From: Halotia branconii CENA392
GTDB taxonomy: Bacteria > Cyanobacteriota > Cyanobacteriia > Cyanobacteriales > Nostocaceae
Assembly: GCF_029953635.1 (NCBI RefSeq)
Contig: NZ_CP124543.1
Coordinates: 3,575,455-3,639,454, forward strand
DNA: 64,000 bases
Reading direction: 5' to 3'
Within the stretch, counting starts at the first letter, position 1, and every line of letters begins with the position of its first letter. The notes under the pieces are model-generated. The model saw only the letters and a program-made list of their open reading frames with translations, did no database searches and had not been told where the DNA came from. Below are positions 12,319 to 56,607 of the stretch, piece by piece. A program made the position numbers and the translations under genes.

Positions 12319-12469
12319 TACCGTTTCACTTTAAAGTTGATACATTTGGGCAAGCAGGGGAGGCAGGGGGCAGGGAGCAGGGGAGGCAGAGGAAGCAGGG
12401 GAGGCAGGGGAAGCAGAGGGCAGGGGGAGTAAGAAAAGTAATTTGTATCAATAATTTCGTGAAATAGTA
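12319..12469. mobile_element. MITE-like element A, copy 1 (151 bp)
   Basis: The ends TACCGTTTCAC and GTGAAATAGTA form imperfect terminal inverted repeats, and similarity continues inward to TTGATACA on both sides. TTA directly repeats on both flanks (12316-12318 and 12470-12472), as expected of a 3-bp target-site duplication. The interior is a purine-rich array of GCAGGGGA-type units. A second copy lies at 39033-39210. No coding capacity. Confidence 0.72.
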
Positions 12470-13641: not shown

Positions 13642-15087
13642 CTACTCTTGTGCTTCTACAGGACGTTCATCGGGAACAAACTCTCCAGGGGTAGTTTCCA
13701 CGGCTGGTTTGTCTACTTCCATTCCTGGTATTGGTAGGTTTAAATTGGGGCCTCTACGGATAATGCGACTACCAAAGTACAAAACCGCAACAAATAAAAT
13801 GCTGTAGACTGTGGCAAAGCCAGTCAGCGAGACTAAGACATTGCTAGCAGGGATATGAGATGCAGCGTCAACTGTACGAATTTGTCCGTAGAGAGTCCAA
13901 GGCTGTCTGCCTACACAGCGGACAATCCAACCAGACTCTACAGCGATGTATCCCAAAGGAGCCGCTAAAATCCAGCCGCGCATTAACCACTTTTGCTGAG
14001 CAATATTTTCGGCTGAGAGCTTACCCCGCAACCATTGCAATGTACTCAATAGCATTAAGCCAGCAAAGAAAAAGCCGATAGCAATCATGGTACGGAAAGC
14101 GTAGTAAATCAAACCAACCATGTGCGGACGATCCTCTGGTTGCCATTCTTTCAAGCCGCGTAGTGGTTCCGAAAGATTCTTTTTAAATTCCAGAATGTAC
14201 CCTAATGCATTAGGTACGGTGATTTCCCAATCGTTTTTCTGAGCTTTTTCGTTGGGTATAGCTAAAAGACTCCAATCCGCAGGTTTGCCAGCAGGTGAAG
14301 ATTCCCACTGAGCCTCCATTGCAGCGAGTTTTGTTGGTTGATAATGAAAAACTTGTTCGCCGCTTAAATGCCCGATGTATATTTGTAACGGAGCAACTGC
14401 GATCGCAGCTGCCAAAGCAATCTTCAAAGACTTAGCAAAAAACGCCTGATGGCGGTCTTTTAGCACATACCAAGCACTAATTCCACCAATCACAAACAAA
14501 GAAGTCTCCAATGTGGCAAAGAACATGTGCAGCACACTGTTGACCATGAAGGGATTTAAAATTGCCTGAAAGTAATCGTGGACAATAAATTTACCATTAA
14601 CCATTTCTCCACCTGCGGGAGTTTGCATCCAGGAATTTGCTGTTAAAATCCACAGGGTTGATAAGTTAGCTCCTACAGCCACCAAAATGGTCGCAAGATA
14701 GTGAATGGCAGGGTTGACACGTTCCCAGCCAAATAACATAATTCCTAAAAATGCAGCTTCTAGCATGAATGCCCAAGAAGCTTCAAAGCCAATCACACTA
14801 CCAAAAAAGTTCCCTGCTGCCTCAGAAAAAGGGGCCCAATTAGTCCCAAATTGAAATTCCATTGGGATACCTGTTGCTACACCAATCCCAAAGTTCAGAA
14901 CGTAGAACTTAGACCAAAAGCGGGCATGAAGATAATAATCTGGATTACGAGTTTTCAGCCATACTCCCTCGACGATTACTAAATAAATCCCCATCCCTGT
15001 AGTCAGGACAGGCCAAAGCATGTGAAATATCGCAGTCAAAGCAAATTGCATCCGTGATAGCACCACAGAATCGGATAAAAATTCCAC
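13642..15087 (-). CDS. cydA: Cytochrome bd-type quinol oxidase subunit I, short Q-loop type
   Basis: A 481-residue CydA protein. Heme ligands are visible: His22 (FHMLWP), His187 (VLHMFF) and Met334 (FRTMIAIG), with acidic residues Glu102 and Glu110 in the proton-path helix. The motif GRQPW lies at 393-397. The Q-loop is short, as in the cyanide-insensitive (CioA) group. The start is a GTG at 15087 with GGGGAAAA upstream; an ATG alternative would remove the conserved N-terminal helix. It is first in the cydAB operon and no cydX-like gene is seen. It oxidises plastoquinol and reduces O2 to water. Assignment is firm; the CIO-like label rests on loop length. Confidence 0.93.
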   Translation of the reverse strand: MEFLSDSVVLSRMQFALTAIFHMLWPVLTTGMGIYLVIVEGVWLKTRNPDYYLHARFWSKFYVLNFGIGVATGIPMEFQFGTNWAPFSEAAGNFFGSVIGFEASWAFMLEAAFLGIMLFGWERVNPAIHYLATILVAVGANLSTLWILTANSWMQTPAGGEMVNGKFIVHDYFQAILNPFMVNSVLHMFFATLETSLFVIGGISAWYVLKDRHQAFFAKSLKIALAAAIAVAPLQIYIGHLSGEQVFHYQPTKLAAMEAQWESSPAGKPADWSLLAIPNEKAQKNDWEITVPNALGYILEFKKNLSEPLRGLKEWQPEDRPHMVGLIYYAFRTMIAIGFFFAGLMLLSTLQWLRGKLSAENIAQQKWLMRGWILAAPLGYIAVESGWIVRCVGRQPWTLYGQIRTVDAASHIPASNVLVSLTGFATVYSILFVAVLYFGSRIIRRGPNLNLPIPGMEVDKPAVETTPGEFVPDERPVEAQE

Positions 15088-15441
15088 GAATTTTCCCCAT
15101 TAGTTAGCCACACTTAACAGGATAGACTCATACTCTGTAGAGTCAACCTCAAAGGGGCAGCACTTCAACTACGCGGTAGTTGAATCTCGACTTCGCGGCA
15201 GTTGAGCGTAGTCGAAACTCAATTGCCGCGCAGCGCCGCACTGAGCCTGTCGAAGTGTCGAAACTCAGTGACCAAAGTTGAGGAGCTAGTTTGTTGCAGT
15301 GAGTCTAGCAATGCGTAAAGCTTAGCTATGCCGCAGGCTTTACGGGGGCGAGGTTTTCAACCTTATTGTTTTGATAAATATGCAATGATTTGTTCTATGC
15401 AGCGATCGCTTCTACTACTCTGTCAAGATAATTTTGCTGGG
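15088..15441. repeat. Repeat-packed intergenic region
   Basis: No gene. Positions 15160-15275 carry several direct and inverted copies of the CACTTCGACTACGC / CGAAACTCAGTGACC module, also found at 25895, 28003, 39090 and 51672. Positions 15323-15374 repeat the 8667-8719 sequence. The left part of MITE-like element B starts at 15416. Confidence 0.7.
15323..15374. repeat. ~53-bp dispersed repeat, copy 2
   Basis: Matches 8667-8719 from TAGCTATGCCGCAGG through TTTTGAT with minor changes. Function unknown. Confidence 0.8.
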
Positions 15442-15539
15442 TTAATGTGAAAAAGTCCACTTCTTTTCTCCCCCTACTTCCCCTGCTTCCCCTGCTTCCC
15501 CTGCCTGCCTCCACCTGTTATTTTTGGGTTGACAGACCA
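15416..15539 (-). mobile_element. MITE-like element B, copy 1 (124 bp), inserted in the EAL gene
   Basis: Read on the minus strand the ends are TGGTCTGTCAA and TTGACAGAGTA, an imperfect inverted repeat sharing TCTGTCAA. GTAG lies directly on both sides (plus strand CTAC at 15412-15415 and 15540-15543), a 4-bp target-site duplication. A copy of exactly the same length lies at 56484-56607, flanked by CTAG on both sides. The interior is a GCAGGGGA-type purine-rich array. Removing the element and one GTAG restores a short open end to the host gene. Confidence 0.85.
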
Positions 15540-17226
15540 CTACTGGCTGACGCAACATTTGAGTAATTATATCAGCAGGGACAGGGCGACTAAAGTAAAA
15601 TCCCTGACCTTCGTCACAGCCGCGCATTTGCAAATATTCCAGTTGTTCTTGAGTTTCTACGCCTTCGGCTGTGATGTTTAATCGCAAACTCTTGGCTAAG
15701 GCAATAATCGCATCGGTGACAGCGGCGCTATCAGGATTAGTCATTACGTCTTGCACAAATGATCGATCAATTTTTAACATGTTGACAGGAAAACGTTTCA
15801 AGTAGTTCAAAGAAGAATAGCCAGTACCGAAGTCATCCAAAGCCAGGGATATACCTAGTTCTCGCAATTGTTTTAGAGTTTTCATAGAGCGCTCAATGTC
15901 AGCCATTAAAAAGCTTTCAGTTACTTCTAATTCCAGATTCGATGCTTCTAGTTCTGTTTCTTGCAGAATTTGGCTGATTATCTCTACTAAATTGGGTAGT
16001 TCAAACTGTCGAGCTGATAAGTTTACCGAAATGCGAATTGGGGAAAATCCTGCCAGTTGCCAAGCACGGTTTTGGGCGCAAGCAGTTCGCAAAACCCATT
16101 CACCTATGGGTACAATTAAATTATTAGCTTCGGCAATGGGAATAAACTTTGTAGGAGAAACTAAGCCTAAAGTTGGATGTTGCCAACGAACTAACGCTTC
16201 CATCGCCATTATTTGTTTGCTGTGTAAATCAATTAGGGGTTGATAATAAACCAGCATTTCGTTACGTTCAAGTGCCCCATGTAATTCATTTTCTAAAGTT
16301 AGTCGCTGCCGTAATTGAGCATTAATTTCTGGTGAATAAAACTGGAATTGGTTACGTCCCTGCCGTTTGGCTTGATACAATGCTATGTGAGCTTGTTGTA
16401 ATAGTTGATCCACACAATTTGGAGCTTCGCAGCCATTGATTGTAATACCGATACTAACTGTAATATGAATCGAGTTGCCTGCTATCAAAAAGGGTTTTGC
16501 CAGGGTAGTTAGTAGCAGTTGAGATAACTTGATTATACTTTCAAAAGAATGAATCTCGATTTGAGCGATCGCAAATTCATCTTTACCCAAATGAGCCAAA
16601 ATATCTGTTTGAGCTATGCAGGTTGTCAAACGTTGGCCAACTGCTCTTAACAATAAATTAGTTTGTTCATGTTCCAACGTATGACTCATAGCCGTGAAAT
16701 CATCGATACCCAATAAAAAAACTGCTACAAGCCCTTGATGGTTTGGAGGTTGAGATAAGGTATTATTAAGGCGATCGCCAAACAAATCTCGATTGGGTAA
16801 ACCAGTCAAATCATCATAGTTAGTGATGTAGTGAATTAGCTCATCCAGTTTGTGCAAAGTTTGTGAAGTATCTGCCATCAATGTCCCTGCTTCATCGGCA
16901 AACTGTATAGGTAGTTCAGGTAATGTTTTGGTGTTTAGATAATTTTGTAGAGCAGCAGATGTCAAAATAACTGGGGCGAGAAGATGGCGGAGTGCATAAA
17001 GAGTAGCTGCCGTACCCGCTAACGTAGCAAACAAAGCAATAATCAAAACTTGTGCTGCCATCTCCAAAGAATAAGAATTGGAGATGACGAAACTAAAAAG
17101 TAAAGTCAAAAGTGGTACATGCGTTCCTAAAAATGCCACCAACATAATTTTGGCGGTATAACTTTTCTTGAGTACTCTCAAATGAGCTAAGGACGAGTAC
17201 AGGAAAAGTCTGTGATTTAACTTCAT
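15442..17226 (-). CDS. Membrane GGDEF-EAL protein, likely c-di-GMP phosphodiesterase
   Basis: A 594-residue protein. Two hydrophobic segments (about 27-50 and 57-80) are followed by a linker, a GGDEF domain (about 130-300) and an EAL domain (about 310-558). The cyclase motif is degenerate: GKDEF at 214-218 in place of GGDEF. The phosphodiesterase motifs are intact: EAL at 343-345, DDFGTGYSSL at 464-473, AEGVET at 520-525. It therefore probably hydrolyses c-di-GMP, with GGDEF as a regulatory domain. The last 32 residues (563-594, Gly/Glu/Lys-rich, ending WTFSH) are encoded by MITE-like element B. The ancestral gene would have ended QPV-EAIAA at about 567 residues. Confidence 0.88.
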   Translation of the reverse strand: MKLNHRLFLYSSLAHLRVLKKSYTAKIMLVAFLGTHVPLLTLLFSFVISNSYSLEMAAQVLIIALFATLAGTAATLYALRHLLAPVILTSAALQNYLNTKTLPELPIQFADEAGTLMADTSQTLHKLDELIHYITNYDDLTGLPNRDLFGDRLNNTLSQPPNHQGLVAVFLLGIDDFTAMSHTLEHEQTNLLLRAVGQRLTTCIAQTDILAHLGKDEFAIAQIEIHSFESIIKLSQLLLTTLAKPFLIAGNSIHITVSIGITINGCEAPNCVDQLLQQAHIALYQAKRQGRNQFQFYSPEINAQLRQRLTLENELHGALERNEMLVYYQPLIDLHSKQIMAMEALVRWQHPTLGLVSPTKFIPIAEANNLIVPIGEWVLRTACAQNRAWQLAGFSPIRISVNLSARQFELPNLVEIISQILQETELEASNLELEVTESFLMADIERSMKTLKQLRELGISLALDDFGTGYSSLNYLKRFPVNMLKIDRSFVQDVMTNPDSAAVTDAIIALAKSLRLNITAEGVETQEQLEYLQMRGCDEGQGFYFSRPVPADIITQMLRQPVVVCQPKNNRWRQAGEAGEAGEVGGEKKWTFSH

Positions 17227-32354: not shown

Positions 32355-32469
32355 AAGCATGGGGCATGGGGCATTGGGGAAAGAACTGTCTTTTTGTCTT
32401 CCCCTGCTTCCCCTGCTTCCTCTGCCTCCCCTGCCTCCCCTGCTTTCTCTGCCTCCCCTGCTCCCCTAC
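32355..32469. repeat. Pyrimidine-rich array (CCCCTGCTTCCCCTGC type)
   Basis: Tandem CCCCTGC(T/C)TC units with CATGGGG heptamers at the left edge. This is the same purine-rich array (other strand) that fills MITE-like elements A, B and D, here without clear termini. It separates two convergent genes. Confidence 0.75.
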
Positions 32470-32931
32470 TTATCCGAACCGGATTGCAACAGCTAGTGTT
32501 ATTGTTCCTAGTTGCTCCCGCAAGCGGAAAATTTGTTTAGGAACCAATAATTTTACTTTTAACTTCTGCTTTCCTATAACATCAGGAGGGAAGCTAGAGG
32601 CTGCAAGAATAGCAGCAGCCTCTGCTACGCTTGGTGTACCTACTTTTTCGTTAGTGATTTTATTAGGGTTGGGTACACAAACAGTAGAAAGAATTGACGC
32701 TGCAAAGGTTTTTAAGGGTAAATTGCCTAGACGACAAAGTTCTATTAACCCGACTTCTGAAGCTTTAGTTTCAATGGTAGCAAAACCTGCGATCGCACTT
32801 TGGTCAAGTTGATTTTCTTGAAACACCTGCTCAATTGCCGCTGCTATCAACTCCTGCGAACTGCCTCTTTGACAACCAATCCCCACCCATAAATTCTTTA
32901 GCTGCTGCTTTGGAGGATTTTTTCCATTCAC
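32470..32931 (-). CDS. Stand-alone CobE / CbiG C-terminal domain protein
   Basis: A 153-residue protein equal to the C-terminal domain of CbiG (CobE), the precorrin-5A-related cobalamin-biosynthesis fold. It shows the family start WVGIGCQRGSS, a central AGFATIETKASEVGLIELC and the loop VGTPSVAEAAAI. In many bacteria this domain is fused in CbiG; here it is alone, as in organisms carrying CobE. No other corrin-ring gene is adjacent. Other cobalamin-related loci in the window are the cbiMNQO transporter and its riboswitch. The stop lies right at the edge of a pyrimidine-rich repeat. Confidence 0.82.
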   Translation of the reverse strand: MNGKNPPKQQLKNLWVGIGCQRGSSQELIAAAIEQVFQENQLDQSAIAGFATIETKASEVGLIELCRLGNLPLKTFAASILSTVCVPNPNKITNEKVGTPSVAEAAAILAASSFPPDVIGKQKLKVKLLVPKQIFRLREQLGTITLAVAIRFG

Positions 32932-56483: not shown

Positions 56484-56607
56484 TGGTCTGTCAACCCAAA
56501 AATAACAGGTGGAGGCAGGCAGGGGAAGCAGGGGAAGCAGAGGAAGTAGGGGGAGAAAAGAACTGGGCTTTTTCACATTAATCCAGCAAAATTATCTTGA
56601 CAGAGTA
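56484..56607 (+). mobile_element. MITE-like element B, copy 2 (124 bp)
   Basis: Ends TGGTCTGTCAA and TTGACAGAGTA with CTAG directly on both sides (56480-56483, 56608-56611). Same length and nearly the same interior as copy 1 in the EAL gene, which has GTAG on both sides. The different flanks in the two copies show that the 4-bp repeats are duplicated target, not element. Confidence 0.88.

Follow-up and report, generated by a model that had tools for sequence, protein, structure and literature searches.

The 3' end of a GGDEF-EAL gene in a Nostoc-like genome of 7.1 Mb (two contigs) raises the question of how a signalling protein came to end in residues that are encoded by a mobile element, and which transposase moved that element. 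The gene lies in a stretch of 64,000 nucleotides (contig positions 3575455-3639454), referred to here as the window. The main reading, to which a probability of roughly 0.85 is given, is that a 124-bp MITE was inserted at a GTAG that lay five codons upstream of the stop codon, with duplication of the GTAG. Translation would then enter one forward frame of the element and halt at an internal TAA, so that 32 new residues take the place of the native end EAIAA. An IS630-type transposase would have acted on the MITE in trans, and the tail, which comes after the final EAL-domain helix and is predicted to be disordered, is probably tolerated and not selected.

The insertion in the GGDEF-EAL gene

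The GGDEF-EAL gene (15442..17226, minus strand) encodes 594 amino acids, of which the last 32 come from the element, as does the TAA stop. The element is in the same orientation as the gene (15416..15539, minus strand) and has the ends TGGTCTGTCAA and TTGACAGAGTA. It is flanked by one GTAG on the 3' side of the gene (15412..15415, minus strand) and another on the 5' side (15540..15543, minus strand), where the nearest relative has a single GTAG. Read along the strand of the gene, the order is therefore GTAG (15543-15540), TGGTCTGTCAA...TTGACAGAGTA (15539-15416) and GTAG (15415-15412). The 11-bp ends form an inverted repeat in which 9 of 11 positions are paired and 8 bp are perfect. The codon of the first element-derived residue straddles the junction between GTAG and the element. 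Beyond the element lie the former last codons and stop (AA GCG ATC GCT GCA TAG; 15394..15411, minus strand), which are now untranslated here and are still used in the nearest orthologue. When the flanks are rejoined without the element and one GTAG, they read ...DIITQMLRQPVEAIAA followed by the stop, and the open reading frame (ORF) has 567 residues and ends in QPVEAIAA.

These results agree with the original prediction in most respects. Its 124-bp element bounded by GTAG on both sides was exact in its coordinates, the reading frame with 32 element-encoded residues in a protein of 594 was reproduced, and the ancestral end QPVEAIAA at about 567 residues was obtained both by excision and from the empty site of a relative. 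Thus the prediction was upheld as regards insertion of a MITE, duplication of 4 bp and the ancestral end, and was not upheld as regards IS701-like mobilization, for reasons given below.

The protein matched the profile PF00563 at 8.4e-77 over residues 313-548, and also PF00990. Since none of the 25 matches listed was an NCBIfam equivalog at its cut-off, the product is regarded as a putative c-di-GMP phosphodiesterase on the basis of its EAL domain. The GGDEF motif is spelled GKDEF, and the cyclase domain may thus be inactive. Between the GGDEF-EAL gene and the neighbouring ORF (13642-15087) is a repeat-rich stretch (TTCGAC.../GTCGAA..., 15155-15285).

Orthologues and the empty site

Orthologues of the gene were collected in two ways. 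A search of the family gave matches at E <= 1e-180 in 36 of 145 genomes, including its own, and yielded 30 loci, one of which is the gene itself. The other source was a scan of the GTDB collection: of 151 relatives the best 80 were considered, and the cyanobacterial loci among them with at least 71% identity were used, 53 in all (L199-L251). Together with the 29 loci of the first set (L071-L099) these make 82 orthologue loci, with some overlap of organisms between the sets. Among the matches listed, the closest was that of Atlanticothrix silvestris CENA357, with 92% identity across the 562 residues that could be matched; the other close matches were mostly from Nostoc.

This nearest orthologue appears in both sets, as L071 and L199, which are probably one organism. 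Its junction reads CAGCCAGTAGAAGCGATCGCTGCATAA, and its protein ends in QPVEAIAA at 570 amino acids, being three residues longer just upstream of the junction. Together with the sequence itself, this empty site establishes the insertion, the frame and the stop of the GGDEF-EAL gene. The element was absent from all 82 orthologue loci (blastn, E <= 1e-4). The ORF ends at 564-570 amino acids in 64 of them (22 of 29 and 42 of 53); the remaining 18 end elsewhere, such as L077-L078, L080 and L088/L226, which have other ends. The L229 orthologue has 599 amino acids, and the matches of L242 and L243 stop at residues 449 and 437 respectively. GEAG occurs in the last 10 residues of none of the orthologue ORFs, and no tail of the GEAG type was seen within their last 28-30 residues. 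The search for orthologues that lack the element and yet carry the same tail, or that lack an end of the QPVEAIAA type, thus left the insertion reading standing.

Orthologues of other species (L080, L088/L226 and L097) have differing Gly/Ser-rich ends unrelated to the present tail. These ends resemble reads into other G-rich repeats, and the 3' end of the gene may therefore have been invaded more than once. The L080 contig stops just past the stop codon, in sequence that resembles a sequencing adapter.

The element family

The genome carries the element at no fewer than 40 sites, to which 46 matches belong; the number is a minimum, as scoring covered the top 40 of 229 first-look candidates, and every one of the 40 sites was examined. 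The flanks were analysed for the 34 copies in which the two ends could be located; the six others (L026, L028, L029, L033, L039 and L040) have an end that is missing or too divergent. All 34 are flanked on both sides by NTAN with a central TA. The two 4-bp flanks are identical in 29 of the 34, compared with a mean of 13.9 when the right flanks were shuffled, and none of 20,000 shuffles reached 29. The left flanks were CTAG (19), CTAC (7), GTAG (5), TTAG (1), ATAG (1) and CTAT (1), and the right flanks CTAG (21), CTAC (7), GTAG (5) and CTAA (1). Sixteen copies have flanks other than CTAG/CTAG, and these include 11 with identical flanks (six CTAC and five GTAG) and five with unequal flanks (L016, L019, L023, L034 and L038). 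The element is a MITE: it is short, lacks a transposase, has terminal inverted repeats and is present in many copies with a target duplication.

A second copy in the window (56484..56607, plus strand) is intergenic, with CTAG on both sides. It lies near a cobalamin riboswitch (RF00174; 56262-56402, minus strand), which itself precedes cobalt-transport-like ORFs.

In the copy at the GGDEF-EAL gene, 3.8 copies of a 9-bp minisatellite (15471..15504, minus strand) are read as GEAGEAGEV in the protein. The unit is GCAGGGGAA and its copy number varies; as nine is a multiple of three, changes in repeat number keep the reading frame. Minisatellites of the GCAGGGGAA type also occur outside the MITE, at 12354-12416 and 32398-32471 of the window and at several loci elsewhere, and may belong to a repeat capable of spreading independently. 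When the family of genomes was searched with the element, matches at E <= 1e-8 were obtained in 62 of 145 genomes, but many of these cover the 9-bp repeat only, and the number of genomes with the element itself is therefore smaller. In several other genomes, full-length related elements flanked by NTAN were seen by eye (e.g. L279-L298 and L135-L138).

The same genome contains a second type of MITE, of 126 bp, with the ends TGGTCTGTCCCATTAATTTTG and TGGTCTGTCGCAAAAGTTTTG, for example at L069 (272-397) and L129 (1377-1502); by their coordinates there are four such end pairs.

Judged by title, no bacterial paper with TGGTCTGTCAA was found, nor did the top-ranked titles include a published description of this MITE family. 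Reported MITEs of heterocyst-forming cyanobacteria include Nezha, attributed to Zhou (2008), and those of Anabaena PCC 7120. The present family may have an earlier name and could be an already named one.

Candidate transposases

Some copies of the MITE terminate in GGGACAGACCA. The end pattern TGGTCTGTCNCATTAATTTTG, with up to three mismatches, was found at 34 places in the genome, compared with two for a control. At one of these, L054, a pair of ends 1884 bp apart bounds disrupted genes, the domains of which are HTH and DDE_3, and a second IS630-type copy lies inside it. The original prediction had suggested a genome search for full-length insertion sequences with the ends of the element. The L054 relic carries matching ends; no intact transposon with such ends was found in this genome among the TGGTCTGTCNCATTAATTTTG places, and L054 was the sole pair of transposon size noticed. 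The relic and one MITE copy (L018/L068) have 27 bp in common. The copy in the GGDEF-EAL gene has fewer bases in common with the IS630-type relics, and only its outer end bases match them.

Relatives of the outer gene of L054 extend this comparison to other genomes. L101 and L110, in another genome, lie between matching ends with 0-2 mismatches of 21. More distant relatives, L107 and L108, have 5-6 end mismatches (5 and 6 of 21 in L107), and 7 of the 14 loci with relatives have no end pair or no end at all. L107 has an uninterrupted ORF of 389 amino acids, which scores 217 bits against NF033545 (cut-off 100), identifying it as an IS630 transposase, and also matches PF13358.

The agreement between the ends of the MITE and those of the IS630-type relics points to an IS630-type transposase as the most likely mover. 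Of the features that characterize an IS630-derived MITE, ends common with an IS630-family transposon and a TA target (34 of 34 copies) were found. Duplication of TA only was not, since all four bases agree in 11 of the 16 informative copies. IS630 and ISY100 are reported to duplicate TA (PMC2170065). In view of this difference from the 4-bp duplication, the MITE is described as appearing IS630-mobilized and is not classed with the ordinary IS630 MITEs.

The difference would disappear if TA alone were duplicated and the bases beside it were variable ends of the element, a reading that is rather improbable. TA is present on both sides in all 34 well-delimited copies, the flanks of L107 are unequal (CTAA and CTAG), and IS630 is said, by the title of Tenzen and Ohtsubo's 1991 paper, to prefer TA inside CTAG, all of which would suit it. 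What opposes it is the agreement of the outer bases in the 11 informative copies, as CTAC/CTAC and GTAG/GTAG, and the same agreement by eye at L283, L295 and L138 in other genomes, with L142 unequal.

The misfit between four bases and IS630, together with a 4-nt MITE on record that is linked to IS5, leaves room for another mobilizer. In Pseudomonas syringae, the 100-bp MITEPsy1, a presumed derivative of an IS5-family element, duplicates 4 nt, CTAG or YTAA (PMC3189936). If IS5 or another family that duplicates 4 bp moved the present MITE, the ends common with the IS630-type relics would reflect convergence or an exchange of ends. The well-supported 4-bp duplication (29 of 34 copies) is in keeping with such a family; the 27 bp that a MITE copy has in common with the relic weigh against it, and this explanation is considered unlikely.

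The IS701-like transposase of the original prediction is a highly improbable mobilizer. Transposases of this type are abundant in the genome, with 40 matches to PF13546, and in one group (L049-L052) the flanks seem to be 4 bp long with TA in the middle, as in CTAA. The ends were compared for 18 of the 40 matches, which represent five multi-copy PF13546 groups; three of the remaining 22 matches fall outside these groups. All the ends compared differ from TGGTCTGTC, and an IS701-like partner was rejected in favour of the IS630-type relics, which carry matching ends.

Other genes at copies of the element

In five of the 40 copies, an ORF that belongs to a known family terminates within the element: the GGDEF-EAL gene (L001) and those for a molybdopterin oxidoreductase (L120), a radical SAM protein (L019), an endonuclease III (L125) and a TauD-like dioxygenase (L007), the last in the opposite orientation. 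Uninterrupted sites of relatives were compared for three of them (L120 with L164, L125 with L175 and L019 with L187), and the element was absent from each. In the molybdopterin oxidoreductase relative L164, the site reads GTCCGCCTAGAAAGACAAAGC and the protein ends in ERQS, and the DNA of L120 reads GTCCGCCTAG, then the element, then CTAGAAAAACAAAGC. The last 33 residues of the L120 protein form the same type of tail as that of the GGDEF-EAL protein. No molybdopterin oxidoreductase match was found in genome G069. The endonuclease III ends in GLSTQK in L125 and in ANKIRA in its relative L175, with an approximate match of the DNA that follows the element; L184, whose end is unreadable, was left out of this comparison. 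Twelve relatives of the radical SAM protein extend 14-27 residues beyond the insertion point, and thus the element shortens the L019 protein, to the end TGLSTQK. The flanks of this copy, CTAC and CTAG, are unequal. The best homologues of the TauD-like protein are 54% identical to it, too distant to serve as orthologues in a comparison of sites.

Two short ORFs, of 74 and 76 amino acids, also end inside a copy (L006 and L128 respectively). Others start inside a copy (L005, L007 on the plus strand, L114 and L130) or span one (L114, L119, L120 on the minus strand and L126); the true start of the DUF2887 gene at L005 may lie after the element. At L011, a 125-bp copy lies in frame inside a gene for an FAD-binding protein, and the ORF crosses the element and stops at 352 amino acids. 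Such proteins are usually longer, and L011 was for this reason counted as a broken gene and rejected as an intact gene with an internal copy.

The added tail

In a structure model of the GGDEF-EAL protein, the last helix extends to residue 559, beyond which residues 561-594 all score under 50 in pLDDT and lack secondary structure. Confidence in the model as a whole is low (mean pLDDT 60.5, from 23 sequences), so it is read as predicting nothing folded for the tail. The 32-residue tail is accordingly a predicted disordered one, and is probably tolerated rather than selected.

Selection of the tail for its effect on the protein, or of the G-rich element at the 3' end of the gene for an effect on the mRNA, is a distinctly unlikely alternative. 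It would account for the presence of the same type of tail on two unrelated proteins and for a G-quadruplex pattern in 11 of the 40 copies, including that in the GGDEF-EAL gene, but the pattern is lacking in the other 29. Gene 3' ends that are overlapped by a copy, or lie within 50 bp upstream of one, were on the strand of the element in 10 cases and on the other in 1, a count made with crude, uncurated ORFs of at least 100 amino acids, with the doubtful L119 set aside and the 50-bp limit chosen post hoc. Widening the limit to 100 bp gives 10 vs 3 (binomial 0.09), and at 150 bp the difference has vanished (13 vs 9). In Nostoc PCC 7120, G-rich repeats on the coding strand have been reported in the vicinity of stop codons (PMC4692102), which would suit selection. 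Tolerance of altered C-termini accounts for what remains.

Relation to known elements and significance

Elements that alter the ends of genes have been described in other bacteria. In Coxiella burnetii, the insertions of QMITE1 and QMITE2 in functional annotated genes are all at 3' ends, where they supply new C-terminal residues and stops; in enhC of the Dugway strain, about 33 new residues arose via an indel beside the element (PMC5896051). The QMITEs differ from the present MITE in sequence and host, and are not known to contain an internal 9-bp minisatellite. The palindromic elements of Rickettsia are similarly repeats, of about 150 bp, that join proteins in frame, but they lie within genes and encode a conserved peptide, whereas the present MITE forms C-terminal ends in intact genes and its internal copy, at L011, is in a broken one (review PMC10969869). 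MITEPlu5 of Photorhabdus is close in size, at about 123 bp, and has ends related to IS630-type transposons; elements of its type duplicate TA only, in contrast to the 4 bp (NTAN) duplicated here (PMC6267812). The BrickBuilt MITE of Porphyromonas gingivalis also contains a minisatellite, but with a unit of 23 bp instead of the frame-keeping 9 bp (PMC4596501). MITEs are on record in cyanobacteria as well (PMC3542288).

With these precedents from Coxiella, Rickettsia, cyanobacteria and Porphyromonas, the rewriting of a C-terminus by a MITE is an event of a known kind. The finding at the GGDEF-EAL gene is correct and well supported, and the rewriting of gene 3' ends by MITEs is already known. It is less usual that the empty site is so clean, that two unrelated proteins have tails of the same type, and that 4 bp are duplicated. 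The locus is a clear case in which a mobile repeat alters the end of a signalling protein and the empty site is found in a named relative, and a single genome shows such rewriting at several genes through different reading frames of the element. The system thereby allows the tolerance of C-termini, and whether the tails matter, to be tested. That an element with ends of the IS630 type duplicates 4 bp is a minor anomaly, open to direct verification. More speculatively, and as a tentative suggestion only, a lineage of IS630 elements in the Nostocaceae, with its MITEs, may duplicate NTAN and not TA, and one MITE with a frame-keeping, G-rich 9-bp minisatellite may be a portable 3'-end module that gives stops and a common tail to unrelated proteins. 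If true, the NTAN duplication would mean that the spacing at which strand transfer takes place has changed within the Tc1/mariner-IS630 superfamily.
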